Shown here one piece after another: positions 21,214 through 50,391 of a stretch of 64,000 nucleotides of DNA. The position numbers were made by a program, and so were the translations under genes. Each line of letters opens with the position of its first letter. Within the stretch, counting starts at the first letter, position 1. The stretch is from a virus: positions 42,658 through 106,657 of IMG/VR virus record IMGVR_UViG_3300022594_000235; one strand, 5' to 3'. The notes under the pieces were generated by a model. That model was not told where the DNA came from. It saw nothing but the letters and a program-made list of their open reading frames with translations, and did no database searches.

Positions 21214-21597
21214 ATGGCATACTCAGATAAAGTAATCGATCACTATGAAAACCCACGCAACGTGGGTAGTTTTGGCAAGGACGAAGCAGGTGTAGGCACT
21301 GGTATGGTAGGAGCACCGGCCTGCGGTGACGTAATGAAACTACAAATCAAAGTTAGCCCTGAAGGTATCATAGAAGACGCTAAGTTCAAGACGTATGGGT
21401 GTGGTTCAGCTATTGCCAGTTCAAGCCTAGTAACAGAGTGGGTCAAGGGTATGCATATTGACGAAGCCCAGAAACTCAAGAACTCAGACATTGCAACAGA
21501 ACTTGCGCTACCACCCGTAAAGATTCACTGTTCAATTCTTGCAGAAGATGCAATCAAAGCCGCAGTAGCGGACTATAAGGCAAAGCATGGCAACTAA
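21214..21597 (+). CDS. iscU: Fe-S cluster scaffold IscU (127 aa)
   Basis: A full-length IscU: cysteines C37 (ACGD), C63 (YGCGSA) and C106, plus the HscA recognition motif LPPVKIHCS. It assembles clusters with host IscS and chaperones. No IscS, HscA or ferredoxin is seen in the window, so it must use host partners. It overlaps the APS kinase fusion gene by 11 nt. Its position leads into the radical SAM block. Confidence 0.95.
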   Translation: MAYSDKVIDHYENPRNVGSFGKDEAGVGTGMVGAPACGDVMKLQIKVSPEGIIEDAKFKTYGCGSAIASSSLVTEWVKGMHIDEAQKLKNSDIATELALPPVKIHCSILAEDAIKAAVADYKAKHGN

Positions 21598-22383: not shown

Positions 22384-22590
22384 ATGAGCGACTCAGCTGT
22401 AAGAAGTCTAGCCAAAGCAGTTAGTTGGCGAGTAACAGGAACTATAGATACCTTTATCATTAGCTGGTTGATTACGGGTCAAGCCTTACTAGCCAGCGGA
22501 ATTGCATTTACAGAAATTATGACAAAAATATTATTATTCTGGGCTCACGAAAGAGTATGGAATAAAATTAGTTGGGGGAAGGATGACTAA
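22384..22590 (+). CDS. DUF2061 membrane protein, copy 2 (68 aa)
   Basis: A canonical DUF2061: SLAKAVSWRVTGTIDTFIIS, LITGQ, then FTEIMTKILLFWAHERVWNK. It has two transmembrane helices. In bacteria this family sits beside cysC/cysN, where its role in sulfate activation is unproven. Here too it directly follows the APS kinase gene. It overlaps the B12-type radical SAM gene by 8 nt. A weaker copy lies at 847. Confidence 0.85.
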   Translation: MSDSAVRSLAKAVSWRVTGTIDTFIISWLITGQALLASGIAFTEIMTKILLFWAHERVWNKISWGKDD

Positions 22591-24283
22591 ACGTATTACT
22601 ACTCTTGCGTTTAGTATGGCTTTAACTACAGATTACAATTTCCCTTACGTACACATACTATTCAAACAGCATTACAAAGTCTTTGGAAAATACCCTGAAC
22701 AATACGAATGGGTAGATCCGGATTATCTTACGCAAGATATAGAACCTTCTATTGTTGCTGATTGGGTTGTTGATAATAAAATTGATATTGTGTTTGCAAG
22801 TATGTACTTGTGGAATCATCAATATACTCACATGATCCTTAAAGAAATTAAGGAACGTAATCCAAACATAACAATCATTGCAGGCGGCCCTCATGTCTTT
22901 GGCAATGATCCTGTGTACTTTGAAGAACACCCTTGGGTTGATATCGTTTCAGATGCTAAAGTATACGGCGAAGCATTCATTGTTGATTATCTTAACGGCA
23001 ATGAACTAGCTGACGTTACAGGAGCAATTTGGGCAACTGGCAAAAGTAATAAAAAATTTAACATACGAGATTTTGAATGGGCTCCTAGAGTCTATGCTGA
23101 CAATATTGACTATGTCAAGAAAGTCATTGCAATGGCTAAATCAGCTTCGATGCCAGCCGTAGTTGGATTTGCTATTGAAACTAGTAGAGGATGCCCATTT
23201 GCCTGTACCTTCTGTGAGTGGGGTGGCGGCATTGCTACCAAGATGAGTAAAAAAGATCTAGCCGATGTTAAAGCAGATGTTGCGGCGTTAATATCTGCTA
23301 AGGCAGAACGATTCCATATATGTGATAGCAACTTTGGTTTTTGGGACGAAGATGTAGCTCTGCTCAAACAAATTGCGGCATCTAATAGAATTGTAGGGTT
23401 TCCTAAAGTTGTTACTATCTATGGATGGAGTAAGAATAATAACAAGCGCCATTATGAAATGTGTAAGATAATGGCCAACTCAACTATCGAAGGCTTCTAT
23501 TATGCTCTAAGCATACAAGGGCTGAACGAGTTAACATTACAACAAATTAAACGATCTGATTCGCCACTAGAAGATAGATGGGCATTAGCTAGAAAGATAT
23601 CACAAGACTTCAAAACAAAAGTTCACGTTGAAATCCTAATGGGATTACCGGGTGACAAATTAGTTGACTATTATAAGATTTTAAACAAACGACATGAATT
23701 AGATGCGTTCTCTCATTATGTCTGGATGTTGTTACCAAACACCGAAGCCCATACAAAAGAGTACAGAGAAAAGTACAGTCTTAAAACAGCATGGGCGCAT
23801 AATGTACAACCTAGCTTCATAAAACACAAAGGTCAAAAGATTAACAAAGAACTAACGGCCGCTCATGCAAAAAACAGATACGAATATGTAGTTGGCAGTT
23901 ATTCTTTAGATCCAGAAGAGTGGCTAGAAGTATTCATGCTTGAACGGTTGTATAATACAGCAAAGAAGCATACAATAGTATGGCCAGTGTTAGAAGCAAA
24001 GCGTGTTCAACTAGGACTTCATCCAAGCGTGTTTTGGAAAAAGATCATGCGTAACTTTAATAAAATAGATAGTCCAGAGTGGAAGTCTATATGGGAAGAC
24101 ATGTGGCCAAAAATACATAAAATGGTTGAGCCATTACAACCTGGAGAAATCAGGTACATGGGATCAGCAGGTATTGAAGATGGACACTCTGTGCATCTAA
24201 GTGATGTTGCTATTATGTTTTTTGAAAAGTACACAGACAAGTTGTTAGCATTAGTTGAACAGGATCAGGAAGGATTACAATGA
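22583..24283 (+). CDS. B12-binding-type radical SAM protein (566 aa)
   Basis: Residues about 60-140 form a cobalamin-binding-like Rossmann domain (IDIVFASMYLWNHQYTHMIL, TIIAGGPHV); the classic DxHxxG is absent. The radical SAM core follows with CX3CX2C at C204/C208/C211 (SRGCPFACTFCEWGG). The C-terminal 250 residues are helical. Class B enzymes methylate or rearrange unactivated carbons. It opens the radical SAM block and overlaps the UGDH-like gene by 4 nt. Confidence 0.85.
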   Translation: MTKRITTLAFSMALTTDYNFPYVHILFKQHYKVFGKYPEQYEWVDPDYLTQDIEPSIVADWVVDNKIDIVFASMYLWNHQYTHMILKEIKERNPNITIIAGGPHVFGNDPVYFEEHPWVDIVSDAKVYGEAFIVDYLNGNELADVTGAIWATGKSNKKFNIRDFEWAPRVYADNIDYVKKVIAMAKSASMPAVVGFAIETSRGCPFACTFCEWGGGIATKMSKKDLADVKADVAALISAKAERFHICDSNFGFWDEDVALLKQIAASNRIVGFPKVVTIYGWSKNNNKRHYEMCKIMANSTIEGFYYALSIQGLNELTLQQIKRSDSPLEDRWALARKISQDFKTKVHVEILMGLPGDKLVDYYKILNKRHELDAFSHYVWMLLPNTEAHTKEYREKYSLKTAWAHNVQPSFIKHKGQKINKELTAAHAKNRYEYVVGSYSLDPEEWLEVFMLERLYNTAKKHTIVWPVLEAKRVQLGLHPSVFWKKIMRNFNKIDSPEWKSIWEDMWPKIHKMVEPLQPGEIRYMGSAGIEDGHSVHLSDVAIMFFEKYTDKLLALVEQDQEGLQ

Positions 24284-25014
24284 TAGGAATTATTGGGTAT
24301 GGTATGGTTGGTAAAGCAGTTGAGTATGGATTTAAAAATACTCAAGTGATTGTGTCTGACCCTGCGTATGGAATAACAGACATTGTTGATGTTGTCCAAG
24401 CTGATCCAGAAGTTATATTTGTATGTGTTCCTACTCCTACAGATGACGACAAATATAGTTTGTTACGTGGCGTCCTTAAGGATATAAAGCAAACAGGCTA
24501 TACAGGATTGATTGTTGTAAAGAGTACAGTATTACCGCAGTACATAGAAGATTTTGATGTATTATACAATCCTGAGTTTCTAAGCAGAGCAACAGCTAAC
24601 ACAGACTTTACTAATCCTCCTATGTTGATCATAGGTGGTGATCCAATCAAAGCAAAAGAGTTACTGTCAATATATAAAAAGTATTCAACTGTGGTAACAG
24701 ACAAAGTATTCATTACAGATATTAAAACTGCTAGCCTAGCCAAATATGCAATGAATAGTTTTTACGCTACCAAGGTTACATTTATGAATCAAATGTACGA
24801 AGTAGCAGAACAAGTTGGTGCAGACTGGAACAGCGTAACTAATATCTTAAAAGAACATCCTTGGATGGGAACACATCACTTTGCTGTGCCCGGACCAGAT
24901 GGTAGCAGAGGATTTGGTGGCCCTTGCTTGCCTAAAGACACAGAAGCATTAGTTAAAGAGTTTGATGTTGAGTTATTAAGAACTGTACTAGAAATAAACA
25001 AAAATTACAGATAA
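24280..25014 (+). CDS. UDP-glucose/GDP-mannose dehydrogenase-like, short form (244 aa)
   Basis: NAD-binding IGYGMVGKAVEYG (residues 4-16), VKSTVLP, NPEFLSRATANTDF and the catalytic cysteine in FGGPCLPKDTEAL are all present. The usual C-terminal UDP-binding domain is missing, since bacterial enzymes have about 400-450 residues. It would oxidise a nucleotide sugar to the uronic acid. The tail overlaps the convergent oxygenase gene by 10 nt. Confidence 0.85.
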   Translation: MIGIIGYGMVGKAVEYGFKNTQVIVSDPAYGITDIVDVVQADPEVIFVCVPTPTDDDKYSLLRGVLKDIKQTGYTGLIVVKSTVLPQYIEDFDVLYNPEFLSRATANTDFTNPPMLIIGGDPIKAKELLSIYKKYSTVVTDKVFITDIKTASLAKYAMNSFYATKVTFMNQMYEVAEQVGADWNSVTNILKEHPWMGTHHFAVPGPDGSRGFGGPCLPKDTEALVKEFDVELLRTVLEINKNYR

Positions 25015-25538
25015 GTTTTACTACGCTCTGCAATCAATTTTGCTTGTCGTCTGTAGTCGTCAAAGTCAAACCCTGTAGGTGTAATCTTTTCAACTGAAAC
25101 CATAATTCTTAATTTGTCAGGATCAATATTGAATACTGAATGTGGGCTCTTAACATCTATAGTATGCCACACACCTTTTGGTATAACATGATCCTCAATA
25201 ATCTCGCTATTGTTGTCAATGCTAGTGTGCCACGCAGTATGAGTTTCGCCACCTGTTTCAATTAAAAAACTTGTTACTGATTCTATTCCAGAATCGACGT
25301 GCGGCGGAAACACATTCTTAATTGTTCTAACGTGCAATTTATAAATTGGGCCCAGATCAAAGTATTGTTTGATCCATGTCTCTAATTGTTTTGGAGGATT
25401 GTATATGCAAAAATTATCAAATATGTCACCAAAGCCAGACACATTATCGTTACCAATTACAGTTTTAGCTAACTCTTGTAAGTGTACTGGTAATGCAGGT
25501 ATTTCCGGATGGTATGTAACGAATCGACTATTTTCCAT
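25005..25538 (-). CDS. 2OG-Fe(II)/cupin-type oxygenase-like protein (177 aa)
   Basis: PPHVDSG supplies HxD; the distal region GVWHTIDVKSPHSVFN and a later Arg (KLRIMVSVE) fit the aspartyl-hydroxylase-like jelly roll. The ATG at 25538 is preferred because AGGA lies 9 nt upstream; an ATG 9 nt earlier would have AGGA against it. It is the only leftward gene inside a long rightward block. The substrate is unknown. Confidence 0.7.
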   Translation of the reverse strand: MENSRFVTYHPEIPALPVHLQELAKTVIGNDNVSGFGDIFDNFCIYNPPKQLETWIKQYFDLGPIYKLHVRTIKNVFPPHVDSGIESVTSFLIETGGETHTAWHTSIDNNSEIIEDHVIPKGVWHTIDVKSPHSVFNIDPDKLRIMVSVEKITPTGFDFDDYRRQAKLIAERSKTYL

Positions 25539-25572
25539 TGACTTCATTCCTAATGTATGTTAATATTTAATC

Positions 25573-25607: not shown

Positions 25608-26714
25608 ATGGTAATTGATCTTAATGTAACCAGCACGTGCAACCTAGCATGTACCTACTGCTCCGAAGGATATGAGTGCGGATTATCCACCGCCTATGAA
25701 GAAAATACAGAAGTAACACTAGACGACATTGAAGAATTCATGTCAAAGATTGATGACCCAAAACGTGACATTTACTTTTGGGGTGGCGAGCCTTTTGTTA
25801 ACTGGGAATTCTGTCGCGGTGTTATGGAGAAGTATAAAGACAATCCAAACTACAGCTTCTTCTTTTATACCAACGGCGTATACCTAAAGAAATACCTAAA
25901 AGAACTTGTACGCTTTCATGAAGCAATGCCAGATCGTTTGAAGATACAGGTTTCATATGATGGCAAACCTGTTAATGATTTAACACGCTTTGACAAAGCA
26001 GGCAATCCCAGTTCTGCAATGGTTAAGAGCAACTACAAGGCCGCTAAAGAAGCAGGCCTTAATGTTAAAATGAAATCAGTGTTACCTGCAGAACACTTTG
26101 ATAAAATTTACGAAGCATTCTTAGATGTTATCTCAATGAACGATAACTACTTCCCAACACCAGACTTATACTCACAGTTAACAGAGGAAGAGTTTGCTCC
26201 TAGATTAGAAGTATTGAAACAAGGTCTAGCTAAGATCGCCAAGCACATCTATACACATAAGCTACCTCCTGAAAAGTTTGGTTGGTTTATGCAAAGTCGT
26301 GCTCTATGCTCCTCTGGTATTAATTATGTATCAGTAGACTTAAACGGAGACATCAGTCCATGTCACGGTTGCATGTACAAAGAGTCACATGCACACGTTA
26401 TGGGCAATATTTTAAAGACTCCAGACATTGATGCACTGATTAAAGAAAAGACAGAAATGTACAAAGGTGCTTTAGCCAATCAACCTTTAATGTGTCAATC
26501 ATGTGATAGCCAATTTTGTATGAAGTGCAATAGTGCTACTTACGAAAAAAGCGAAAAAGAAACATATCTTGAAAAATGGTCTGATCACACAAGTAATTGG
26601 CAAGTGTGCAAGGTATTCAAAACTAACGAAATTGTCCATCACGCATTGCGCACCGCTCTTAAGACTTACAAGAAACCTAAGTTTGAAATTAAAGCGGAAC
26701 AATGTAGCCTATGA
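25608..26714 (+). CDS. radical SAM-SPASM protein (368 aa)
   Basis: CX3CX2C at C11/C15/C18 (STCNLACTYCSE), GGEPF near residue 60, and a C-terminal Cys-rich region (DISPCHGCMYK, then CQSCDSQFCMKC) typical of SPASM domains that hold auxiliary Fe-S clusters. This is the architecture of anaerobic sulfatase maturases and RiPP-modifying enzymes. It overlaps the next radical SAM gene by 4 nt. Candidate client: the Cys-rich protein at 30397. Confidence 0.9.
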   Translation: MVIDLNVTSTCNLACTYCSEGYECGLSTAYEENTEVTLDDIEEFMSKIDDPKRDIYFWGGEPFVNWEFCRGVMEKYKDNPNYSFFFYTNGVYLKKYLKELVRFHEAMPDRLKIQVSYDGKPVNDLTRFDKAGNPSSAMVKSNYKAAKEAGLNVKMKSVLPAEHFDKIYEAFLDVISMNDNYFPTPDLYSQLTEEEFAPRLEVLKQGLAKIAKHIYTHKLPPEKFGWFMQSRALCSSGINYVSVDLNGDISPCHGCMYKESHAHVMGNILKTPDIDALIKEKTEMYKGALANQPLMCQSCDSQFCMKCNSATYEKSEKETYLEKWSDHTSNWQVCKVFKTNEIVHHALRTALKTYKKPKFEIKAEQCSL

Positions 26715-27625
26715 TGCAAACAGTTATTCCAAAGATTGTTAGTGCTGGATCAAAGGACTTTGAAGAAGTTTCCTTTGGTTGGTTGCTGACTGATTGGTGT
26801 AACTATGATTGCAGTTATTGTTCTAGCAAAGGTTGGCTAGTTGATAAGTTTGATAGAAGCAAATATCGCACAGCTTTAATTGTTCCATTTCGATTAAAAA
26901 ATATAGACGTAAACTTTACAATTGATCTAGCAGGTGGTGAGCCAACGGTTCATCCTTATCTTAATGAGATACTTAAAAGCCTAGCTGATATCAATGCTTG
27001 CAAACGCATTGTAGTTAATACAAACCTTTCTAGATCATTGCGTTACTTTAAGAATCTATACAAACATGATAAGATTATGATATCAGCTTCTTATCATGTT
27101 GAACACGATAATGAAGACTTTGTTAAGAAATGCCTAGAGCTTAAGAACGATAACTTTGTTGTTCATATTAATATTATTGATAATCCCATACACTGGCCTG
27201 CAATACTAAAACTAATTGAAACGTGTAGAGCAAATGATATCAATTATGCATTTAATTCGTTGCACTCTACTGAGTATAAAGAAATAAATTATACTCCAGA
27301 ATGTTTTGAAATGTTCAACGACCTTAATACAACTATTAAAGACCGTTACTACTACGCATATGAAGACGGTACTACAGAACATCTTAGCTCATTTGAAATT
27401 AAACAAAAAAGCCTACACAAGTTTTTAGGTTATAAGTGTACAACACTAAAATATCAAATACAATTTGATGGACGCATTGTTAGAGAATGTAACAGAGAAC
27501 CAGTTACAGCTATGTTTCCAAAACGCAAAGACTTTTTTAAAACAATAACATGTCCGCAAGCACAAGGGTGCGATTGCGATGTGATGCTAAATTATTACAA
27601 GGAATTACCCAATGTTTACGCTTGA
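26711..27625 (+). CDS. radical SAM protein (304 aa)
   Basis: The cluster motif sits at C30/C34/C37 (DWCNYDCSYCSS), then LAGGEPTVHPY and a partial barrel. The C-terminal cysteines (VRECNRE, then CPQAQGCDCDV) suggest an auxiliary metal site shorter than a standard SPASM. A CP...CNCD-type C-terminus is shared with the protein at 35010. It overlaps neighbours by 4 and 14 nt, so it is translated from the same message. Confidence 0.88.
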   Translation: MMQTVIPKIVSAGSKDFEEVSFGWLLTDWCNYDCSYCSSKGWLVDKFDRSKYRTALIVPFRLKNIDVNFTIDLAGGEPTVHPYLNEILKSLADINACKRIVVNTNLSRSLRYFKNLYKHDKIMISASYHVEHDNEDFVKKCLELKNDNFVVHINIIDNPIHWPAILKLIETCRANDINYAFNSLHSTEYKEINYTPECFEMFNDLNTTIKDRYYYAYEDGTTEHLSSFEIKQKSLHKFLGYKCTTLKYQIQFDGRIVRECNREPVTAMFPKRKDFFKTITCPQAQGCDCDVMLNYYKELPNVYA

Positions 27626-28736
27626 AATATCCGTAACTGAAAAATGTAACTTAGGTTGTCCCTACTGTTATGTTGCCAATCGCCCTACATGGATGACTCC
27701 AGAAGTTTTTGACAACGCTATGCCAGAGCTATACAATCTAATGTCTCGCAGTGGAGATAGAGACTATTATGTTAGTTTCTTTGGCGGAGAACCTCTGTTA
27801 AACTTTGATTTGATCAAATATGCTGTTCCTAAACTAAAAGCAGATCCAAGATGTAAAGGTATTAACATCATTACCAATCTAACTATGATCGATGATGAAA
27901 AATACAAGTTTATTAAAGAGAACAATGTAGGAGTTAGTTGGAGTTTTGATGGAATGAGTTCTAACACCACTCGTCCATTGTTGCCCTTGTTAGAAAACAC
28001 TAATCCAGAAACTGGCGAGTTGTTCAACGGCATCCTCGATATGTACAACTTTAAGAAGGATCTTATTATGGATCTAACTAACGGTTGTAAAGTTATGATA
28101 TGGCCAGGCAATACTAAAGACATGGCAGAGAACTTTGAGTTCTTGCTGGACTGGGGCATTGCACACCCTGACTTCAGTATTGTACGTGATGACGTTTGGA
28201 AGCGTGACGACATTCTAGAGTTTGGTGTTGAGTGTGAACGTCTAGCTACTGCATGGATCTCAAAGATTAAACAAGGCATACCATGTTCAGTTGGCTTCCT
28301 ACGCCTAGCTATATTAGATATCTTGTTTGGGCTTGTAAAAGGTAAACGAGCGTTTGGTTGCTTTGCAGGAACTAACGGTGGTGTGCTTATGAGCTCAGGA
28401 GAGTTTTATCCTTGTGCTCGCTTTGCAAGTAAAAAGATTATGAAAATGGATAGTGAATATGATTTCCAGTACTATCAAAAGATATTCAATCCACACAGCT
28501 ATGACAAATGCCAACCCTGCGATCTTAAGCAGGTATGTAACGCAGGATGTACTTACAGTCAAGTAACCAATGACAACAAGCCGTTAGACAGTATCTGTGA
28601 ATTGTTCCATATCTATTATCAACAGGCTATGCGTGTTGTAGAAGAGTGCAAAGATGAACCTTTGTTCCAAGATTTAATATTGCATTATCTTGATAACATT
28701 GGTGTAGAAAATGAAGGTGTAGAATGCAGGAACTAA
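27612..28736 (+). CDS. radical SAM-SPASM protein (374 aa)
   Basis: C12/C16/C19 (EKCNLGCPYCYV), FFGGEPLLNF, and a SPASM-like end (GGVLMSSGEFYPCARF, then CQPCDLKQVCNAGCTY). The pattern is close to sulfatase-maturase or quinohemoprotein-maturase enzymes, which act on peptide substrates. It overlaps the next small gene by 13 nt. Confidence 0.9.
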   Translation: MFTLEISVTEKCNLGCPYCYVANRPTWMTPEVFDNAMPELYNLMSRSGDRDYYVSFFGGEPLLNFDLIKYAVPKLKADPRCKGINIITNLTMIDDEKYKFIKENNVGVSWSFDGMSSNTTRPLLPLLENTNPETGELFNGILDMYNFKKDLIMDLTNGCKVMIWPGNTKDMAENFEFLLDWGIAHPDFSIVRDDVWKRDDILEFGVECERLATAWISKIKQGIPCSVGFLRLAILDILFGLVKGKRAFGCFAGTNGGVLMSSGEFYPCARFASKKIMKMDSEYDFQYYQKIFNPHSYDKCQPCDLKQVCNAGCTYSQVTNDNKPLDSICELFHIYYQQAMRVVEECKDEPLFQDLILHYLDNIGVENEGVECRN

Positions 28737-29065
28737 AACCTAAAAAGACTTATCGTAGTATTACCAGCATCCCTGTTAAGGTTGAAATGCAACCTGTTGA
28801 ACACAAGGCTGATCGCGTATTAACTACAGATGAACTACAAGAACAAATTGAAGAAGCACGTAAAGGTAAAGCCAAAGTAGACAGCAAGTACGTAGGTTTT
28901 GAGTTAGACGAACGCGGCCATCTGTTTGAATACAAATATGATTATGTTCGCTATCTAGATAATATGAGTCATATTATTAAAGAAGCTAAGGCACGTAAAA
29001 AGAGTAAAGCTGATGACCTTTATCAGAATACACATAAAATGCGTATAAGCAATTCACCAACATGA
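28724..29065 (+). CDS. unknown basic protein in radical SAM cluster (113 aa)
   Basis: MQELKPKKTYRSITSIPVKV; strongly charged, with a predicted long helix (LQEQIEEARKGKAKVDSK) and a basic C-terminus. It has no cysteines, so it is unlikely to carry clusters. Its place between two radical SAM genes, with overlaps on both sides, suggests a partner or adaptor, perhaps for peptide binding. No recognition domain is identified. Confidence 0.6.
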   Translation: MQELKPKKTYRSITSIPVKVEMQPVEHKADRVLTTDELQEQIEEARKGKAKVDSKYVGFELDERGHLFEYKYDYVRYLDNMSHIIKEAKARKKSKADDLYQNTHKMRISNSPT

Positions 29066-29952
29066 TACCTATTGTAATAGATAAACATCCTAACGCAGAT
29101 TTCTACGTTGGTGACCAAACAGATAAACCTACTCCAGAAGGATCTGGAGTCAATGTCTTGTACTTTACTAACAAGTGCAATCTAGCTTGTACATATTGCT
29201 ATGAAGATTTGCCAGGCCGTCCTCCGCAGATTATGACCAAGGATGAAATCAGAGAATCTATTGATGCTATCATTGCTAGAGAAAAGCCTGAGAATCAAAC
29301 GCTGATTGTATTGTTTGGCGGTGAAGCAACACTAGAGTGGGAAAACGTTTGCTATGCTATGGAATATGCTTACAGCAAGAAAACTAATCTACATTTTAAT
29401 CTTACTACTAATGGTATCAAATATCTAAGCCAAAAGTTTATTGATGAAACTATAGGTAACTATTTTTATAAGAAACGTATGTTGAGTATTGACATTAGCT
29501 TCGATGGCATAGGCAACGGTGATCGTATTTTTCATAACGGCAAAGACAGCACCGGATCTATGCTAGAGGTGTTGCGTAATTTGGTAAAAAACAATGTTAG
29601 ATATAGACTACGATATACTATTCAAAAGAATAACATAGATCACTGGTATGAAGATGCGCACCATATTATTAAAACATTTAAACCCTTGCGATTCATTACA
29701 TCAGTTGCTTGGTCTACGTTAGATCCTGATACCGACTTTGATAAACTTGACACCGCTAAGTTGAAGTTTAGAGCCGACTGGGTAGAAAAGAAGTTAAGTG
29801 TGCCCGTTTGCGAGCTGTTTTGCGACATGTGTAACGGATGCGGCGAACGAAAAGAACTAAAAACCTACTTTACCAATGAAGGTAATGTAACAACTTACGG
29901 GAATTATGAGAACTCTCCAAAGTTCCATGATTTCAAAGAAAAAATACAATAA
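29062..29952 (+). CDS. radical SAM protein (296 aa)
   Basis: C39/C43/C46 (NKCNLACTYCYEDL), LFGGEATLEW and LTTNGIK. A compact Cys group (CELFCDMCNGCGERK) near residue 255 could hold an auxiliary cluster. The last gene before the Cys-rich peptide region, it ends 24 nt before the start at 29977. A late-like AATAAATA box lies between them. Confidence 0.88.
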   Translation: MIPIVIDKHPNADFYVGDQTDKPTPEGSGVNVLYFTNKCNLACTYCYEDLPGRPPQIMTKDEIRESIDAIIAREKPENQTLIVLFGGEATLEWENVCYAMEYAYSKKTNLHFNLTTNGIKYLSQKFIDETIGNYFYKKRMLSIDISFDGIGNGDRIFHNGKDSTGSMLEVLRNLVKNNVRYRLRYTIQKNNIDHWYEDAHHIIKTFKPLRFITSVAWSTLDPDTDFDKLDTAKLKFRADWVEKKLSVPVCELFCDMCNGCGERKELKTYFTNEGNVTTYGNYENSPKFHDFKEKIQ

Positions 29953-29976: not shown

Positions 29977-30384
29977 ATGACTAATAACGACACCCCAACT
30001 AACACCGTAATTATTGATAAGCTAAATCACATATTTGAGCTTATTTGTGAAATTTCAGCAGAAGATCAGGCGCTTGGCGTCCTTCTTAAAGAGTTTTATA
30101 CCCTATCGCTAAAAACAGCATCTGAGATTGCACAGCACGGTGGTGACAGAGATAAAATTGATATTAGTCAGCATATTAGCATCATCAGCAATATATTAGG
30201 TGCTGATGTTCGTGCAATGATGGAACAGGTATTATTAGATCTATCTGCACAACAGGTAGAATCAAATAAAGAAGCCGACTCTGCAACTTTAGAATTTATT
30301 ACTTCTGATTTAGATGATTATGAAAAGTTCATTGCTCAAAACAAAGCTAAAGAAAGTTTAGATTTTCTTTCAAAAGAAATTTAA
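29977..30384 (+). CDS. unknown helical acidic protein (135 aa)
   Basis: MTNNDTPTNTVIIDKLNHIF, then a mainly helical acidic protein ending DDYEKFIAQNKAKESL. It has a single Cys. It is the first of three small genes that surround the Cys-rich protein, and could bind the precursor or be a virion part. No family is recognised. Confidence 0.6.
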   Translation: MTNNDTPTNTVIIDKLNHIFELICEISAEDQALGVLLKEFYTLSLKTASEIAQHGGDRDKIDISQHISIISNILGADVRAMMEQVLLDLSAQQVESNKEADSATLEFITSDLDDYEKFIAQNKAKESLDFLSKEI

Positions 30385-30396: not shown

Positions 30397-30915
30397 ATGG
30401 GAAGTCGTAATATATCATCGTTTGACGGAAGCAAGTACGGAGTATCGTATTCTATATCATCACCTAGTGCCGGAGCAACAATTCAGTCAACCGACTTTGA
30501 TACTCTAGTTGCAAGATACAATGATGAGTATGTAAGACGTAATCAAGGAAATCCCGGTATTGGCCATCCAACTGGTACTATTTCGTCAGATACAATCAAA
30601 GGGTGGGCTAATGGCCTAAATGGTTTAGGAGGTCAAGGTGCTACAGGTAATAGTTTAGGCGACCCTGGGCAAGACGTTAACTCAACAACCATTAGTCAAA
30701 TTAATCAAGGTGCGGCATTTTCTGGTGCAGGTGGCGGAGCTCCTGGAAACATATCTGGCGGTAATGTGTTTTATGCATCCGACTTTACAGGAGTAGCAAA
30801 CGCAGTTATTAATGCAGGTGCTCAATGTTTATGTAATTGCAACTACTGTACTTGTAATTGTAACTACTGTACCTGTAACTGCGATTACTCATGTACCTGT
30901 AACTGTAACTATTAA
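30397..30915 (+). CDS. Cys-rich repeat protein, candidate modified precursor (172 aa)
   Basis: Residues 1-140 contain no cysteine and are Gly/Ser/Asn/Ala-rich after a folded-looking start (TDFDTLVARYNDEYVRRNQG). Residues 144-172 are four tandem units CxCNC[ND]Y (one with an added Ser), giving 12 cysteines and 4 tyrosines in 29 residues at the very C-terminus. This leader-plus-repeated-core layout is typical of RiPP precursors for radical SAM enzymes. Alternatives: a metal-binding tip or disulfide-linked virion protein. Nine radical SAM genes surround it. Confidence 0.8.
   Translation: MGSRNISSFDGSKYGVSYSISSPSAGATIQSTDFDTLVARYNDEYVRRNQGNPGIGHPTGTISSDTIKGWANGLNGLGGQGATGNSLGDPGQDVNSTTISQINQGAAFSGAGGGAPGNISGGNVFYASDFTGVANAVINAGAQCLCNCNYCTCNCNYCTCNCDYSCTCNCNY
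30826..30912 (+). repeat. four tandem CxCNC[ND]Y-coding repeats
   Basis: 21-24-bp units (TGTacTTGTAATTGTAACTAC type) with synonymous differences between copies, so the peptide repeat is kept by selection rather than by very recent DNA duplication. Confidence 0.85.
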
Positions 30916-30928: not shown

Positions 30929-31327
30929 ATGAAACATAAAGAATTAGAAGGAATTGATGCAAACACCTATGCCGGAAAGGCTGTGTGGGCAGTTAAAACT
31001 AAAGCCAGAGGCGTCTTTGGCGATGACCTTTTAACTTTTAAATTAATTGATATTGTTAGTTTGATGTTATTGAATAATAGATTTGCTAACAAAGGAATCT
31101 TTATTACAGATGATAATAAAGAAGAAGCATATATCAAAATTATTGAAACCGGCGATGAATCTCTAATTTCAGACTTAGAAAAATTTTTAACTTTAAAAGA
31201 TGAAGTTAAAAAGATTGAAGACAAAAAAGAAGAATACTTTTTAATAATCAAACAATTACAAGCATTATCTAATCCTGATGATTCTGATGCAGTAAACAAA
31301 ATAGTAGAAGAATATCTTCGGAGATAA
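30929..31327 (+). CDS. unknown protein (132 aa) next to the Cys-rich gene
   Basis: MKHKELEGIDANTYAGKAVW; basic N-terminal third, then a long charged helix (KFLTLKDEVKKIEDKKEEYF) likely to coil. It has no cysteines. An AAGG site precedes the ATG. Adjacent to the candidate precursor, it may be a chaperone-like or recognition factor; nothing in the sequence proves this. Confidence 0.6.
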   Translation: MKHKELEGIDANTYAGKAVWAVKTKARGVFGDDLLTFKLIDIVSLMLLNNRFANKGIFITDDNKEEAYIKIIETGDESLISDLEKFLTLKDEVKKIEDKKEEYFLIIKQLQALSNPDDSDAVNKIVEEYLRR

Positions 31328-32347: not shown

Positions 32348-33277
32348 TTGAAGATATTAAACTTAAAACAATACGAATTAATATTCACCACCTCCTTTTT
32401 CTACACGCACGGAGTGTCTGGTCATCTTTATGAGATGATTGACTACTTTTACATTTGTAGTCAAAACAATATCAACTGTGCTATCCTACTAGCAGACGGC
32501 GTTAAAAAATCACAATTTGAACAATCAGTAAAAGACAAGTATAATTTTACTAAAGATGAACTTGATCATATGTTCGAACATACATATGAATGCCATCAAC
32601 CTAAAATTATCATGGCCAATAACATCTGTATAGTAGATGGTAGTTGGCGTGTACTAAGTTGTACAATTTACGCAGACAACATATTCTTGCTTCGTTGTTC
32701 AGAATCTGATTTTACCTATTTTGATAAAAGTAAAACAATCAACCGTAGTCATCTGCTACAAGACTTTAAACTATATCTAGAACGCTTTGAAGATTTGGAT
32801 ATCGCAGTAGTTGATTACACGAAGAAAATACTATGGAGTAAGTTCCATCAGCCCACTAGCACAACTCCAAATACAGCACTATTATACCTAACCACCAGCA
32901 CTAGAGCAGACGATATTGATAACATCAAAAGAATTATGAGCAAGAATATTTGCGATAATTACTTGATAGTAACCAATGATCCTAAGAGGTATTCTATTTT
33001 GGAAAGCAACAACGTTAAGATAAAAGAAGCTCCAGTGACAAACATACTTGAACAGTTTGACACATATATCTACACGCCCACAAAATGGAAAAATGATTGT
33101 AGTCCTAGGTTCGTTGTTGAATGTGCTGTATACAATAAACAAGTTGTATACGAAATAGATTATGAGTGTGCAGGACTAGCCCGCAGGTTAGACGATATTA
33201 AAAACAACCTTGCTGGCCTCGAATTAACTACAGATGACTTCTTTGTTTCTTACGTTAAGGAACATATCTATGCGTAA
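32348..33277 (+). CDS. GT-B-like protein (309 aa)
   Basis: It starts with TTG (MKILNLKQYELIFTTSFFYT). The last third, ending CSPRFVVECAVYNKQVVYEIDYECAGLA, resembles the acceptor/donor half of GT-B transferases in which an SPRxxxEA-type motif lies near the nucleotide. The N-terminal half is Rossmann-like (YICSQNNINCAILLADG). It overlaps the next radical SAM gene by 8 nt. Confidence 0.5.
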   Translation: MKILNLKQYELIFTTSFFYTHGVSGHLYEMIDYFYICSQNNINCAILLADGVKKSQFEQSVKDKYNFTKDELDHMFEHTYECHQPKIIMANNICIVDGSWRVLSCTIYADNIFLLRCSESDFTYFDKSKTINRSHLLQDFKLYLERFEDLDIAVVDYTKKILWSKFHQPTSTTPNTALLYLTTSTRADDIDNIKRIMSKNICDNYLIVTNDPKRYSILESNNVKIKEAPVTNILEQFDTYIYTPTKWKNDCSPRFVVECAVYNKQVVYEIDYECAGLARRLDDIKNNLAGLELTTDDFFVSYVKEHIYA

Positions 33278-34412
33278 GACTATCCCAATTGAAGTTAAGA
33301 AAATGTTTCAAGAGGAAGCAATGCATGCCTTGTCGGATGTTCGTGTATCTGCAATTAAAAAAGCAGAACCCAATGCGCTATCAGAATTAGGATGTTCTGG
33401 TTTAGAGTTAGACTTAACTACAACCCCTTGTGTACGTGCTAGATTGAACACTGGTACATTTTGTAATTACGATTGTGAATTTTGTTATTACAAAGACATG
33501 CTGGATGTTAAGACTCCTTGGGAAATTGTTAAAAAACGTATTGACTACCTGTACAAGTATGGAATCAAAGAAGTTGACCTAAGTGGCGGCGAAAGTGCTG
33601 TTAGTCCTGATTGGTTTAAAATTCTAGACTACTGCAATGACAAATTTAGAAGCATTAGTTGTCTAAGTCACGGCGGTAAGTTTGCTAACATGGATTTCTT
33701 AAAAGAAAGCAAGGACCGCGGACTTAAAGAAATATTGTTTAGTCTACATGGAGCCACAGCAGAAGTACACGATGAAATTACAGGACGCAAAGGATCGTTT
33801 AATCGAATCTTAAAAGGTATCAATAATGCCAAAGAGTTAGGAATGATTGTGCGTACTAACACAACTGTTTACTATCGTAACTATCATCAACTTGAAGATA
33901 CCCACTCTGCGTTAATTAACAGCATCATGCCAGTCGAGTCAAATTTTATTACTCTTAACTATTGGGGCGACTTTAACGTAATTGATTTTAAAAATGCATC
34001 CTATAAAGACATGACAGATGCTATTAAAAAATGCATAGATAAGCTCAACAATGGTATTGAAATTAACGTAAGGTATGCGCCATACTGTTACATGGAAGGG
34101 TATGAAAAGTATGTTGCAGGCACATACCAACATATCTACGATGTGCGAGATTGGAACAGAGAAATGTACACGTATACTTTAGATGTTGATCGTGAATATA
34201 CTCCAACTGAAAAAATTCAAAATGCTTACAATGCGTGTTCTACACACAGATCAAGATTCTATAAGAAAACATTAGACTGTGTAAAATGTAAACACTTTTA
34301 TATCTGCGACGGTGTTGAAAAAGAAATAGCAGACATTACTCCAGTTATACCTACGCCGGGTGAAAAGATAAAGCAAGTTAATTTTTATAGACACAACAGA
34401 GATGTGCGATGA
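33270..34412 (+). CDS. radical SAM protein with N-terminal extension (380 aa)
   Basis: C65/C69/C72 (TFCNYDCEFCYYKD), LSGGESAVSPDW and FSLHGATAEVHDEITG, as in MoaA/NirJ-like enzymes. A Cys pair near the end (DCVKCKHFYICDG) probably belongs to a small auxiliary site. The ATG at 33270 overlaps the previous stop; an in-frame start 36 nt earlier lies inside the upstream gene. Confidence 0.88.
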   Translation: MRKTIPIEVKKMFQEEAMHALSDVRVSAIKKAEPNALSELGCSGLELDLTTTPCVRARLNTGTFCNYDCEFCYYKDMLDVKTPWEIVKKRIDYLYKYGIKEVDLSGGESAVSPDWFKILDYCNDKFRSISCLSHGGKFANMDFLKESKDRGLKEILFSLHGATAEVHDEITGRKGSFNRILKGINNAKELGMIVRTNTTVYYRNYHQLEDTHSALINSIMPVESNFITLNYWGDFNVIDFKNASYKDMTDAIKKCIDKLNNGIEINVRYAPYCYMEGYEKYVAGTYQHIYDVRDWNREMYTYTLDVDREYTPTEKIQNAYNACSTHRSRFYKKTLDCVKCKHFYICDGVEKEIADITPVIPTPGEKIKQVNFYRHNRDVR

Positions 34413-35038
34413 AATTATCTATTCTTATCTTAACACACAACAGACCTCATCTTTTTAAACGTTGTTTAGAAAGCGTTCTTGCGCAAATAACACCAGCAGT
34501 TGAAGTGCTGGTTAATAATGATACACACGATATAACAGAAATAGAACATCCGCAGGTAAAATATTTTTATTATTCGTCTGGTAGCTTATGTGAAAAATAT
34601 AAATTCCTATTAGAAATAGCACAAGGCGAATATATCTATTACTTAGAAGACGATGACTATCTAACTAAAGATTTTTTAACTGTTGATTTAGACGCAGAGC
34701 TAATAGCAGGAAACTACTGCCCAACATACAACACAACAGATATGTTAACTTTTATGACGTTATATAAAGATGATAATCCTAATGCTGATCAGTTTCTCAA
34801 CAATCTAAACACTGAACATTTACAACTATCTCAACACATATATAAACGTAATACTATAATAGATTTTGATTTTCCTATGGACAGTAATATACACAACGAT
34901 GTGAAGCTAACTGTACATGCGGCCTTAAAAGCAAAGAGCATTAAAACAGTAAACAAAGTTTTCTTTTTTCAAACAGTGGACGGCGGAGATAATATCTCCT
35001 TTCTAAATCATGGACTACAGCAAACAGCATCATATTGA
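34409..35038 (+). CDS. family 2 glycosyltransferase (209 aa)
   Basis: GT-A start LSILILTHNRPHLFKRCLES, with YYLEDDDYLT (DxD metal motif) at about residue 85. It is short for GT2 but contains the nucleotide-sugar half and a brief acceptor part. It would transfer a sugar in the cytoplasm. Overlap of 29 nt with the next radical SAM gene. Confidence 0.8.
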   Translation: MKLSILILTHNRPHLFKRCLESVLAQITPAVEVLVNNDTHDITEIEHPQVKYFYYSSGSLCEKYKFLLEIAQGEYIYYLEDDDYLTKDFLTVDLDAELIAGNYCPTYNTTDMLTFMTLYKDDNPNADQFLNNLNTEHLQLSQHIYKRNTIIDFDFPMDSNIHNDVKLTVHAALKAKSIKTVNKVFFFQTVDGGDNISFLNHGLQQTASY

Positions 35039-35912
35039 TCAAGACCCTGATCACATCAATGTGCATTGGGATGTCCTAACGATCTGTCAACTTAATTGTT
35101 CCTACTGCTATGCTCGAAATGAATATGGAGAAAAGTGGGGCAAGCTAGGTAGTCGTGAAATTGCCGATACTGTTTTAGAAGCATTGAACAGAAGTAGTTT
35201 ACCATTTAACCTAGGATTGTTAGGCGGAGAGCCTACCCTAAGTCCACACTACTATTACATCTTAGATCGTATTAGTGCTATGGAAAAGTTTAATAAAGTT
35301 TATGTTGTAACTAATGGAGAAAAAGATTTTGCCAAACACCCAGACTATGAGAAGATTGCTTTCTTGTTTAGTTATCATCCTGCTGATTGTACAAATAGGG
35401 ATCGTTTTGTTTCTAATGTAAGGTTAATGAAGGATCGGGGCTACAAAGTCAAAGTGAATGTAATGTTGCATCACGGAAAACAGTATTGGCCGCTGATCAA
35501 AGAGATGTTTGAAATATGTGATGCAATGGGTGTTAAGGCACATCCGCATTTCATTTATGGTAAAAGTGTACATCAACTGTTTAACTATCGAAAACCTTTC
35601 TGGGACTATTTTAGTTTCTTAAAAGACAGAGATAGAGAATTAGTCTACGGCGATGAACTTAAGAATGATTACGAAATCTTTAGCGAACGATTAACAAACT
35701 TTGAAGGTTGGAGTTGTTACAATAACAACTATGAACTTGACGTATATGGACGAGTAATTAAGTTCTGTTTAGATAACGAAAGATTAGATTTAGCAAAGAA
35801 TCCAGACTTCTTTAAAAATATTACAAAGACTGTGCCTATGACCTGCCCTCACAAGGCATGTAACTGCGACGGACTACTCAAACAACTTAAGGTGAATCCA
35901 AATGCAAGTTGA
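35010..35912 (+). CDS. radical SAM protein (300 aa)
   Basis: C26/C30/C33 (TICQLNCSYCYARN) and LLGGEPTLSPHYYY. The end, MTCPHKACNCDGLLKQ, mirrors the C-terminus of the protein at 26711 (CPQAQGCDCD), so the two are paralogues. The neighbouring pair 35010/35902 looks like another radical SAM duo. Overlap of 11 nt with the next gene. Confidence 0.88.
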   Translation: MDYSKQHHIDQDPDHINVHWDVLTICQLNCSYCYARNEYGEKWGKLGSREIADTVLEALNRSSLPFNLGLLGGEPTLSPHYYYILDRISAMEKFNKVYVVTNGEKDFAKHPDYEKIAFLFSYHPADCTNRDRFVSNVRLMKDRGYKVKVNVMLHHGKQYWPLIKEMFEICDAMGVKAHPHFIYGKSVHQLFNYRKPFWDYFSFLKDRDRELVYGDELKNDYEIFSERLTNFEGWSCYNNNYELDVYGRVIKFCLDNERLDLAKNPDFFKNITKTVPMTCPHKACNCDGLLKQLKVNPNAS

Positions 35913-36651
35913 ATGGGAAGTCACAATGAAATGTAACTATAACTGTTACTATTGTTCTAACTTAGACAAGAGTATTCATCACATTACGGATCATAACATT
36001 CTGCGTAACTTTATTAAAATGCTAGGAGAAACATATCCAGGCGTAGAGATATTCTTGTTTGGCGGCGAGCCGTTTGTGCATCCAGAGATTGGATACATTA
36101 TCAAATGCTTTAACGAGTTTAAGATTCCTTTTGTAATACAAACTAACCTAAGCAAATACAGCATTGAAGTTATGAAGACTATTACAGAGCCTTACATACT
36201 ACAAGCTAGCATACATCCTACTGAAGTGAGTCAAGAGGACTTAACAGACATCCTCAAAGAGAATGTTACCTGTAGAGTAATTGATGTAATGTTTAGCGGT
36301 AAAGAAGCCCTATGGTATTACTTTAAAGTAAAAGAGAATACAACTGCTGGCAAAGTATATCTAACTCCTGTTACTGACTTTGGTGATGGCCGTAGCGATG
36401 TTGCTCTACAAGAGTATGTTAAATTAAAGAACAATCCTAGCTATAATAAGATTATTAAATTTGAAGAAGTAGAACGCCTAGGTAAACCTAGATCAGAAGT
36501 ATGGGCTACAATATCTTTTAGTCCTAAAGGTAAACCTTGCTTGTACAAGGACAAATACTTTTTGTATAGTCCGCAGTTGGAAATGTACAACTGTTGCTAC
36601 AGAATTAAAACGGATGGCATCTGCCCAAAAAGCAAATGCTTTTTAATGTAA
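35902..36651 (+). CDS. radical SAM protein, short form (249 aa)
   Basis: C11/C15/C18 (MKCNYNCYYCSNLD), LFGGEPFVHPEIGY and IQTNLSK. The C-terminus has cysteines (GKPCLYKD, YNCCYRI, CPKSKC) that may bind an extra cluster. At 249 residues it is close to a bare partial barrel. It is in the same transcript as the gene at 35010. Confidence 0.86.
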   Translation: MQVEWEVTMKCNYNCYYCSNLDKSIHHITDHNILRNFIKMLGETYPGVEIFLFGGEPFVHPEIGYIIKCFNEFKIPFVIQTNLSKYSIEVMKTITEPYILQASIHPTEVSQEDLTDILKENVTCRVIDVMFSGKEALWYYFKVKENTTAGKVYLTPVTDFGDGRSDVALQEYVKLKNNPSYNKIIKFEEVERLGKPRSEVWATISFSPKGKPCLYKDKYFLYSPQLEMYNCCYRIKTDGICPKSKCFLM

Positions 36652-37916: not shown

Positions 37917-38990
37917 ATGGCAGATTGGAAAAAACTAAAAGTCGTTAGACACAAAGAAGATATGCAGATTGGGCAGATTAAACCCCAACGGTCATACAAA
38001 GTGCTCACTGAATTAGATCAGGGAGGAATTGACTACGACTATATGGTTACATTCCGCATTACAGAAGCGTGTGATTTAAAATGTAATTACTGCCATTGGC
38101 ATAGTGGTAAACATTATACCTATGAGGATATTATTGCATCCATTGACAAACTGTTTGAGTTCTTTGTTAAGCAACAATTTAAGTCTGTGCTATTTTATTA
38201 TCACGGAGGCGAACCGACCCGCCATCCTAAATGTTTAGATATTCTAAAGTATATACACAAAAAGGGTGAGGAAACAGGTATCGATGCATACAATGAGATG
38301 CAGACTAATCTTACAATCAAAGAAGACAAGTTACGTGCAATGCTTCCTTATTGCGATCAATTCAATGCCAGCTTCCATTACCTAGAACTAAAACGATTAA
38401 ACAAACTTAAAGACTTTGATCATAACTGGGAAGTTCTTAAAGAGTTAGGCGTTCCTATTCACAACATGGACATTATGATGGAGAACGTTGAGCGTGGCGA
38501 CCGCTGGTATGCTGGCAAGACTGTTGAAGTTATTCCAGAAGAGTTCTATAGCAAAGTTGTAGGCTACTTAGAATACGATAAAATACAAAACTGTGAAATG
38601 ATCTACGGCTTCTGCCACTATGTATATCCTGAAGACGTAGCAGAAAAGCATATGGCTTTTTATAAACAACATAATAAAACAGAACAGCGTTATGAAATAG
38701 ATGATAAGATCTATACAACTAATGACTTGTTTAAGTTGGGCATCGATGCACGTGGCTGGAAGTGTGCGGCTGGGCAAGAGTCTATTACTATCAACGGTGA
38801 TGGTAATGTGTTCCATTGTGGCATACATATGACTAACTTCATACGTGATAGTCAGCCTGAAACTCCCTATACTAATCTAGTTCATGATAATCTTGCAGTA
38901 ACTAAACTATCTATCTTATACAAAACAGGAACAGTTTGTCGCTGGGATTATTGTGGTGGAGACTTTTACCTAAGTAGAAAACCAAAATGA
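37917..38990 (+). CDS. radical SAM protein (357 aa)
   Basis: C52/C56/C59 (EACDLKCNYCHWHSG), YYHGGEPTRHPK, MQTNLT. The C-terminus (RGWKCAAGQESITINGDGNV, then FHCGIH and CRWDYCGGDFY) is SPASM-like. It may have its own sigma70-type promoter, unlike the rest of the block. Overlap of 4 nt with the oxygenase downstream. Confidence 0.88.
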   Translation: MADWKKLKVVRHKEDMQIGQIKPQRSYKVLTELDQGGIDYDYMVTFRITEACDLKCNYCHWHSGKHYTYEDIIASIDKLFEFFVKQQFKSVLFYYHGGEPTRHPKCLDILKYIHKKGEETGIDAYNEMQTNLTIKEDKLRAMLPYCDQFNASFHYLELKRLNKLKDFDHNWEVLKELGVPIHNMDIMMENVERGDRWYAGKTVEVIPEEFYSKVVGYLEYDKIQNCEMIYGFCHYVYPEDVAEKHMAFYKQHNKTEQRYEIDDKIYTTNDLFKLGIDARGWKCAAGQESITINGDGNVFHCGIHMTNFIRDSQPETPYTNLVHDNLAVTKLSILYKTGTVCRWDYCGGDFYLSRKPK

Positions 38991-39580
38991 TTATTCCTTT
39001 ATTTCCTATTAACTTATATAAAACTACAATTGATGTAGATTGGAATCAAGTACAGGTTATGGAACGACTTGAAGAGTACTTTGATCAGCAATCAAAGGAC
39101 GGTATTGTTGTCCGTACACTCCACAAAGAAAAAGTATTCGAACCGTTGATTAAATTTATGGATTCCGTAGTAGCTGACTATTGGCAAGTGCTAGGCTACG
39201 ATTCTAGCTATCCGTTTGGCATCAGTCAAATGTGGGCAAACAAGTATGAGCGCAACGCTAAGTATCCGCACAATCTAGATAACGATAGTCCGTCTAATGT
39301 AACCTGTGTATTCTATGCAAGTAAGGAAAGTGCAGAGCAAGGTAACTTATTCTTTGCAGATCCTAATGAACTGGTAATTAGAACACAACCATTAGGCGAA
39401 GAAAGAAAGTTTAAAAATCGTTATCCAGAGTTCGACGGCCGCACCGGGGACCTTGTATGTTTTCCTAGCTGGTTACAGCACGGCATACATCCAAACAACA
39501 CAGACATTCCTAGATACTCCATTGCCTGTAACTATCAGCTAAGAGGTCTAGACATTCTTAAAAGGGCATTAAAATCATGA
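38987..39580 (+). CDS. 2OG-Fe(II) oxygenase-like protein (197 aa)
   Basis: The pattern PFGISQMWANKYERNAKYPH, then NVTCVFYAS, GNLFFADP and GDLVCFPSWLQHGIHPN follows the TIGR02466 oxygenases found in many T4-like cyanophages. The distal His and following Arg (IPRYSIAC) are present; the proximal motif is PHNLDND rather than a simple HxD. It is coupled to the genes on both sides. Confidence 0.7.
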   Translation: MIIPLFPINLYKTTIDVDWNQVQVMERLEEYFDQQSKDGIVVRTLHKEKVFEPLIKFMDSVVADYWQVLGYDSSYPFGISQMWANKYERNAKYPHNLDNDSPSNVTCVFYASKESAEQGNLFFADPNELVIRTQPLGEERKFKNRYPEFDGRTGDLVCFPSWLQHGIHPNNTDIPRYSIACNYQLRGLDILKRALKS

Positions 39581-40152
39581 AAGTAGCATTAACAGGTTGG
39601 AACGGATTCCTTGCAACAAAGCTCAGAGAATCTACAGCCGTTGAGTGGGTAGAGCATCCTGAAAAAGCCGACATGCTGTTGCATTTAGGAAGTCCTACAT
39701 TTACACAAGCTGAACTACACCAACACGATGCACAAGTAATGCATCAATACGTTCGCGAGTCTATTAAGATTATAGATCGATTTGACGGTCCTGTACTATT
39801 TGCTAGTACAACTGGCGTCGACGATATACAGTTAGATCATGCAGGGTCTACTTGCTATAATCTAGGTAAACTCTATTTAGAAAACTATGTTATCAACAAC
39901 TGCGATGACTGGGCAGTACTTAGAATAGGTACTATTGTATCTAAGGATCCTGACGATATTGCCGCAATGAAGCCTGACAGAATACAGCCTAGAATACAGC
40001 GCAAAGATTTGGCAAATATTGAATGGGAAGATTATTATTTGCTAGTTGATGATTTTGTAAATACAACACTAGCACTTATACAGGACTTTAAAACAGGGAT
40101 TGTAACATATCCTTTAACTAAGTTTACGCTAGCAGAATTATCTAAGATATGA
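39577..40152 (+). CDS. short NAD(P)-dependent sugar epimerase/reductase-like protein (191 aa)
   Basis: VALTGWNGFLATKL is a GxxGFxx-type Rossmann motif and CYNLGKLYLE supplies the YxxxK pair of extended SDR enzymes. It is shorter than typical RmlD/GalE proteins (about 290-330 residues). It would act on a nucleotide sugar. Related SDR genes lie at 46346 and 46905. Confidence 0.75.
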   Translation: MKVALTGWNGFLATKLRESTAVEWVEHPEKADMLLHLGSPTFTQAELHQHDAQVMHQYVRESIKIIDRFDGPVLFASTTGVDDIQLDHAGSTCYNLGKLYLENYVINNCDDWAVLRIGTIVSKDPDDIAAMKPDRIQPRIQRKDLANIEWEDYYLLVDDFVNTTLALIQDFKTGIVTYPLTKFTLAELSKI

Positions 40153-40823
40153 CCATACACTTTCATTCAGCTAACGCAACGTTTAGACCTATACGAAGAA
40201 ACGGAACTACTAGTTTTAAATTTTGGTCACGGGCTCATATTCCAGATGCTGAAATGGTGTTCAATAAGAATAGCGAAGGCGGGCTAGCACACTTAACTCC
40301 TGCTGAAATAGAAGCAAAGTGGACGAATCCTGGAACTACCTTTGGCTTTGTTAGGAATCCTTATAGTAGACTAGTCAGTGGGTTTCATTGGCTAGGGCAA
40401 CAGGCTAATAGACGAATTTTACAAAGACAACACAATAAAAATCCAGAAGACTATCCGTTTTCTTTAGACTTTGATTTGAAATTGTTTTGCTATTATAATA
40501 AGGGGTTTGATTGGTGGATAAAGAATCAAATTAATTTAGAGCAGTCAAATTTAAATCCATATGGTACTATTGCATTATTTGAAAACCCTAAACAGACGCA
40601 ACTATTTTGTTGGGACGACCAAGTTCCTGATATTGTTGTAAAGTTAGAAAACGTTAGTGAAGATTTTAAAAAGGTACAGGAATTACTTAATTGCAAGGCT
40701 CCTTTCTTTTTAATGAATGCTAGTGTGCATGATGATTACAGAACGTATTATACTAGTGAAACAGAACAACTGGTAAGAAAGTGGGTTGAAAAAGACTTAG
40801 ATACTTTTGGTTACACATTCTAA
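40149..40823 (+). CDS. sulfotransferase family protein, divergent PAPS loop (224 aa)
   Basis: GFVRNPYSRLVSGFHWLG is the 3'-phosphate-binding motif of Sulfotransfer_2-type enzymes. The 5' loop reads RRNGTTSFKFW where relatives have PKTGGTSF, so the usual Lys is replaced. Homologues at 47837 and 49146 have the standard loop. The substrate is likely a glycan or small sugar. Overlap of 4 nt with the SDR gene. Confidence 0.75.
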   Translation: MTIHFHSANATFRPIRRNGTTSFKFWSRAHIPDAEMVFNKNSEGGLAHLTPAEIEAKWTNPGTTFGFVRNPYSRLVSGFHWLGQQANRRILQRQHNKNPEDYPFSLDFDLKLFCYYNKGFDWWIKNQINLEQSNLNPYGTIALFENPKQTQLFCWDDQVPDIVVKLENVSEDFKKVQELLNCKAPFFLMNASVHDDYRTYYTSETEQLVRKWVEKDLDTFGYTF

Positions 40824-50341: not shown

Positions 50342-50378
50342 GTTAGCCATAATAATTGCTCTACGCATTAGAGTATGC

Positions 50379-50386: not shown

Positions 50387-50391
50387 TACAT

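Follow-up and report, generated by a model that had tools for sequence, protein, structure and literature searches.

The tip of gp37, the long tail fibre protein of phage T4, carries HxH iron sites (the iron needle), and we know of no case in which gp37, or a fibre chaperoned by Peptidase_S74 (S74), is matured by radical SAM (rSAM) enzymes. In the ranthipeptide system of the maturase PapB, the PapA motif is Cys...Asp/Glu. For the Campylobacter phages CP220 and CPt10, 11–12 rSAM proteins and a 21-bp intragenic repeat were reported without being linked to each other, and a role of the enzymes in host metabolism was proposed (Timms 2010, PMC2853527). Enzyme activation and DNA modification were proposed for the rSAM proteins of phage vB_CcoM-IBB_35 (PMC3322345), and the receptors of Firehammervirus phages have been described as unidentified (PMC10877375). 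The original prediction, an earlier reading of the DNA studied here, knew of no described phage system of this kind. This statement stands, as no paper linking phage rSAM enzymes to a Cys-repeat protein was found in a literature coverage from which subscription papers and preprints were mostly absent.

The window, the whole stretch of 64,000 bases that was analysed, is part of a 106,657-base IMG/VR virus record. The phage is T4-like, and the repeat protein encoded in the window is fibre-like:

30397–30915, + strand: Cys-repeat protein of 172 aa, a putative modified substrate or fibre-tip protein, with homologues found
30397–30825, + strand: Cys-free N-terminal domain, with three confident helices in the AF2 model (residues 31–47, 64–76 and 127–142)
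30826–30912, + strand: C-terminal array, residues 144–172 (CLCNCNY CTCNCNY CTCNCDY S CTCNCNY), the putative modified core

We suggest, as a reasonably probable reading, that this gene and three rSAM genes (A, C and D) form a RiPP-like phage cassette, in which the enzymes cross-link the Cys-rich C-terminal array of a probable tail-fibre or baseplate-tip protein.

Translation confirmed that residues 1–143 are free of Cys and are followed by four C-x-C-N-C-[ND]-Y units with 12 Cys, the first Cys being residue 144. A Ser spacer ahead of unit 4, absent from the original prediction, is kept as S/A/G/T in most four-unit relatives. Coincidence was ruled out as the origin of the array by composition shuffles, none of which (0/20,000) reached even two units. 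The units within the window array differ mostly at synonymous codon positions, so that selection acts on the protein and the array is not the result of fresh DNA slippage; simple slippage of a DNA repeat was also ruled out by the synonymous excess between neighbouring units (538 synonymous versus 328 non-synonymous codon differences). AF2 left the array without a model (pLDDT < 50), and a Foldseek search with the AF2 model of the repeat protein gave no fold match in BFVD or PDB. The gene starts 12 bases after ORF 29977–30384 and ends 13 bases before ORF 30929–31327, and no terminator-like site was found on the + strand between 29952 and 31327.

The repeat family was gathered from viral contigs by a search with the window protein, by two degenerate tandem-unit DNA patterns and from other fetched loci. 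It comprises 59 distinct phage proteins with 443 units and the consensus C[T/P]C[N/D]CN[Y/F/H]. Position 2 of the unit is T in 309 and P in 50 units, position 4 is N (230), D (172) or Q (27), position 6 is N in 403, and position 7 is Y (362), F (55) or H (24). The C, N/D and Y/F/H residues are held across the 443 units while the remainder diverges, and in four-unit relatives almost all invariant columns fall within the array. The end of the array is the end of the protein in eleven members, the window protein being of this type, and an S74-like SDxRLK motif follows the array in thirty. A profile search of the PDB with the family gave no match. When the whole window protein was compared with cultured phages by tblastn, no match was obtained, but a CP220-type query did match. 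In the genomes of 84,980 species, the tandem repeat occurred in only three stretches. Two of them are MAG contigs, one of 3 kb and one, phage-like, of 161 kb. The third is a contig of Clostridium rectalis (146,102 bases, L215 / L093), which agrees in length and sequence with a record also classed as viral.

As the original prediction stated, four rSAM genes lie directly upstream of the repeat gene, starting at 25608, 26711, 27612 and 29062. Three of them are the core enzymes:

25608–26714, + strand: core rSAM enzyme A, 368 aa, SPASM; best PDB match 5wgg (E = 3.5e-24)
27612–28736, + strand: core rSAM enzyme C, 374 aa, PapB/CteB-like; rSAM_PapB E = 4.2e-36 (below cut-off), 5wgg E = 7.9e-34
29062–29952, + strand: core rSAM enzyme D, 296 aa, with a C-terminal CxxxCxxCxxC; 5wgg E = 4.4e-19

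Assignment to the rSAM superfamily (PF04055) is based on the presence of CxxxCxxC and a Pfam score above the cut-off, and the Cys residues of the radical and auxiliary clusters are conserved in the core enzymes. With profiles of A, C and D, the best match among solved structures was the thioether maturase CteB. Enzyme C, which begins at the rSAM domain, gave an AF2 model with a pLDDT of 88.5; the top Foldseek match of this model was 5why_B (CteB; E = 2.2e-15, TM 0.69), and 5wgg, ChlB and anSME were also matched. As predicted by this model, C has a CteB-like rSAM-SPASM fold. The best NCBIfam match of all three enzymes was the PapB ranthipeptide maturase family (NF047865), whose cut-off of 340 bits was not reached (C 124.8, A 73.3 and D 86.7 bits). 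The same was true of SCIFF/CteB (TIGR03974, cut-off 425 bits; C 76.3, D 62 and A 53.2 bits), and the window enzymes scored far below the CXXX-repeat maturase family (TIGR04115, cut-off 350 bits). Since A, C and D lie far below every curated NCBIfam cut-off, their reaction is not assignable by family. Their nearest relatives are peptide maturases, and the array is very likely the substrate of the rSAM enzymes. The linkage could be a thioether, for and against which we are evenly divided; what suggests it is the relatedness of the enzymes to CteB and PapB.

Other genes of the window island are as follows:

21214–21597, + strand: IscU/NifU-like Fe-S scaffold (Pfam NifU_N, E = 1.8e-53)
22583–24283, + strand: B12-binding-type rSAM enzyme, 566 aa
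26711–27625, + strand: accessory rSAM enzyme B, not in all loci
28724–29065, + strand: small ORF separating C from D, 113 aa; conserved in operons of the A-C-D type
29977–30384, + strand: small ORF located after D and ahead of the repeat gene, 135 aa; conserved in operons of the A-C-D type
30929–31327, + strand: conserved gene directly downstream of the repeat gene, 132 aa, phrog_25260; both types of operon and the Campylobacter phage CP220 contain homologues
33234–34412, + strand: accessory downstream rSAM enzyme E
35010–35912, + strand: accessory downstream rSAM enzyme F
35902–36651, + strand: accessory downstream rSAM enzyme G
37917–38990, + strand: accessory downstream rSAM enzyme H
50356–50721, + strand: IscA-like A-type Fe-S carrier (Pfam Fe-S_biosyn, E = 8.8e-17)

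The further rSAM genes that had been placed downstream of the repeat gene number four (33234, 35010, 35902 and 37917), and the position 33270 given earlier is best read as ORF 33234–34412. All nine PF04055 matches of the record are inside the window, where the rSAM genes and the repeat gene form one same-strand run. The IscU/NifU-like and IscA-like proteins may support the many Fe-S enzymes. The island is also rich in modification-type genes. It includes a Trp_halogenase gene (44014–45285, Pfam E = 1.8e-65) and ORFs that by eye resemble oxygenases or sulfotransferases (25005–25547, 38987–39580, 45266–45898, 40149–40823, 47837–48523 and 49146–49796); a second halogenase-like ORF, noted from a look at the sequence only, lies elsewhere in the record (G000:C1 5820–7220).

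The rSAM enzymes could instead make a small molecule or unusual sugars, for a surface glycan or for nucleotide or DNA modification, the repeat protein being an unrelated fibre that is present by chance. A UDP-sugar dehydrogenase and a glycosyltransferase-like ORF among the window neighbours agree with this, as do the roles published for Campylobacter phage enzymes (host metabolism, PMC2853527; enzyme activation and DNA modification, PMC3322345). It is at odds with the kinship of A, C and D to peptide maturases and with the feature that is conserved among loci, which is nearness to the repeat gene, while the downstream genes vary. For the locus as a whole we consider this explanation distinctly unlikely; for B and E–H it is plausible. 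Since the islands hold sugar-type, halogenase and oxygenase-like genes, some rSAM enzymes may serve other products, and B and E–H may be among these.

The association of the repeat with rSAM genes was assessed across the family. PF04055 matches were present in 42 of the 49 records searched, and since two of the 49 (G016 and G017) are without the repeat, this corresponds to 42/47 repeat-bearing records. Among repeat-bearing contigs of at least 40 kb, rSAM genes were found in 37 of 39, versus 3 of 20 relatives chosen by terminase similarity (Fisher, 6e-10), and their density was 7.2 per 100 kb versus 0.6 in the controls. Because the records are not all independent, distinct repeat families were counted separately, with rSAM genes in 27/30 families versus 4/34 controls (p = 2e-10). 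All rSAM genes that were detected up to about 10 kb from the repeat gene share its strand, and they are often located 4–15 bp upstream of it. The core trio occurs in two conserved orders, A-C-D-small-REPEAT and C-D-A-REPEAT, with identities to the window enzymes (by best-match class) down to 26–42%. The arrangement by which RiPP systems are recognised, a precursor gene adjoining maturase genes across lineages, is thus present, and there is little doubt in our view that the repeat and the trio are functionally associated.

The original prediction also implied that the repeats should not occur without rSAM genes. This holds apart from one remaining case, a 43.8-kb fragment (G024) with a 16-unit array and no rSAM gene. 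Four other apparent exceptions (G004, G005, G030 and G046) are explained by contig ends: their repeat stands at the edge of the contig, and the enzymes are present in relatives of greater length (L214, L228–L231).

In the reverse direction, a repeat gene was found no more than 9 kb from each orthologue of enzyme C that reached 36% identity, except in CPt10, L232, L237 and L220. The repeat gene of CPt10 lies elsewhere in the genome, and L232 and L237 are contig ends, L237 having C and A with tail genes and no repeat in 8.6 kb. In L220, the repeat ORF (L220:11665–11880) breaks off after 71 aa inside a complete rSAM operon, owing either to an assembly error or to true loss of the array. In a set of 50,697 phage records, only Campylobacter Firehammervirus entries yielded the repeat gene, full-length C and A, each in the same 15 records from 11 distinct phages (IBB_35 is in several contigs). 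A related portal was found in 2,493 phage records; the Campylobacter phages F355 and CC12667_12682_P3 have it and carry neither the repeat nor the C/A enzymes. The 21-bp intragenic repeat of CP220/CPt10 encodes an array of the CxC[ND]CNY type. The repeat gene of CP220 (gp140) has genes for the tail sheath, the tail tube and tail-fibre attachment as neighbours; A (gp136) follows 2.2 kb downstream, and C (gp023) lies at a distance of about 31 kb on the circular record. The A gene of CP21 (L103) is split into two ORFs. The co-occurrence of homologues with rSAM genes, which the original prediction had proposed as a check, was therefore borne out in the forward and reverse searches, in cultured phages and against terminase-matched relatives.

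It may be asked whether the array is instead a metal- or Fe-S-binding needle, comparable to the iron needle of gp37, that is not covalently modified, with the rSAM genes merely sharing the island. Three Cys per seven residues could coordinate metal in a trimer, with which S74-type trimeric fibres are compatible, and the IscU- and IscA-like genes of the window island as well as the array without rSAM genes in G024 are consistent with such a needle. However, it would leave unaccounted for why the same CteB-like trio is kept with the repeat across terminases of ~25–35% identity and in two gene orders, and why searches that start from the enzyme arrive at the repeat again. We therefore regard an unmodified needle as unlikely.

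The position of the protein in the phage is indicated by its relatives. The tail-fibre chaperone motif Peptidase_S74 often follows directly after the array, and S74 scored above the Pfam cut-off in all four tested CxC[ND]CNY proteins with a longer S74 region (L088, L026, L021 and L037). In L101 (11059–11960), L102, L090 and L092, S74 is split: the repeat ORF stops after SDxRLKxxI and the rest is in the next ORF. L213 likewise has S74 divided over two successive ORFs, the first being the repeat ORF. S74 is absent from the window protein, which ends where S74 would begin in relatives. Fibre or tail genes flank the repeat gene in several relatives, and the Clostridium element (L215 / L093) has, in a tail module of siphophage type, the order Dit-Tal-rSAM-REPEAT-fibre-like gene, the rSAM enzyme being a different one. 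The array-bearing protein likely sits in the virion tail.

A leader-like N-terminal domain and a Cys-rich C-terminal core beside rSAM maturases are also what ranthipeptide, SCIFF and CXXX-repeat systems present, and the locus might then be a classical RiPP, from which the array would be cleaved to give a free peptide with, for instance, an antimicrobial or signalling role. Against this, the fibre-chaperone S74 motif stands after the array, the context is one of tail genes, and the putative substrates contain from 2 to 28 units and are as long as 534 aa, with an array that lies inside the protein. In the genes examined by general domain scans, we saw neither a leader peptidase nor an exporter nor an RRE. 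A released peptide is very unlikely in our opinion. Based on the S74 motifs after the array and the flanking tail genes in several relatives, a virion protein with a putatively modified tip, the second option of the original prediction, fits better.

We propose the following pathway for the cross-linking cassette. The putative structural protein, a tail-fibre or baseplate tip, would fold through its helical N-terminal domain, and A, C and D would act on the C-terminal Cys/Asn/Asp/Tyr heptads. By analogy with CteB and PapB, Cys sulfurs would be joined to carbons of neighbouring residues, namely Asn/Asp at positions 4 and 6, Tyr at position 7 or Thr at position 2. The product would be a rigid, disulfide-independent tip with a possible use in adsorption or stability. 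In S74-bearing relatives, autoproteolysis at S74 would expose the modified array as the C-terminus, where the window protein ends already.

Enzyme C is 72–79% identical between phages whose terminases are about 28–35% identical, and from this comparison the cassette has probably moved as a unit between phage lineages. The closest relative of the window phage is G050, with 90% identity in the terminase and 93% in a neighbouring gene of 429 aa. At the corresponding site, it carries three different rSAM genes next to the gene of a protein of 89 aa (L307:10935–11204). The N-terminal motif of this protein is similar to that of the window protein, and its C-terminal end is CDCQCQCDCTRGTL, with CDCQCQCDC. 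In most of the loci inspected for more distant phage rSAM genes, the immediate neighbour encodes a Cys-rich protein of another repeat type, one of these proteins being Hoc-like. The enzymes of three such distant relatives (L264, L266 and L271) pass the TIGR04115 cut-off and adjoin other Cys-rich repeat proteins. It is conceivable, with our judgement in even balance, that phages chemically mature their own tail and fibre proteins by a swappable rSAM-SPASM cassette that knits a Cys-rich tip, CxC[ND]CNY being one of many types. If this is true, phages would widely use such tips for receptor binding or protection, a general strategy of which no description was found. Other Cys motif types seen beside phage rSAM genes were CNSDCxCN, CxSCQGVACQ, CETGCE, CTGTCSGGC, CSGCSGC, CSCNATCYGYV and others (L239, L241, L246, L248, L251–L253, L257, L258, L260, L264, L266, L267, L269–L271, L276, L277, L280, L283, L288 and L289).

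If the cassette acts as proposed, a function would be at hand for the unexplained rSAM clusters found in Campylobacter phages and in many phages from the environment. The substrates known for rSAM maturases would then include structural proteins of viruses, and new enzymes for peptide cross-linking could be drawn from a modular source. The repeat protein is also nominated as a candidate adhesin of Firehammervirus phages, and the hypothesis is directly testable in cultured phages.

Compared with known systems, the locus resembles CP220/CPt10 and vB_CcoM-IBB_35 in having rSAM proteins, an array-encoding repeat and orthologues of C and A, whereas the authors of those genomes did not connect enzymes and repeat and proposed metabolic or DNA-modification roles (PMC2853527, PMC3322345). 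The repeat family has in common with gp37, at the tip of the T4 long tail fibre, and with fibres chaperoned by S74 a short repeated motif at the fibre end and the S74 motif. In CXXX-repeat peptide systems (TIGR04115), Cys-repeat proteins likewise adjoin an rSAM maturase, but the phage repeat and enzymes differ and the A-C-D trio is not theirs. PapB (NF047865), although ranked first in NCBIfam for all three core enzymes, is distant from them (124.8 versus 340 bits for C), and the putative phage substrate has C-x-C-[ND]-C-N-Y heptads rather than PapA-like motifs. Finally, the SCIFF maturase CteB (5wgg/5why; TIGR03974) is similar in its rSAM-SPASM fold and Cys-rich substrate, whereas the phage enzymes are below the family cut-off (C 76.3 versus 425 bits), lack an N-terminal region before the rSAM domain, and stand three to a substrate in the context of a phage tail.
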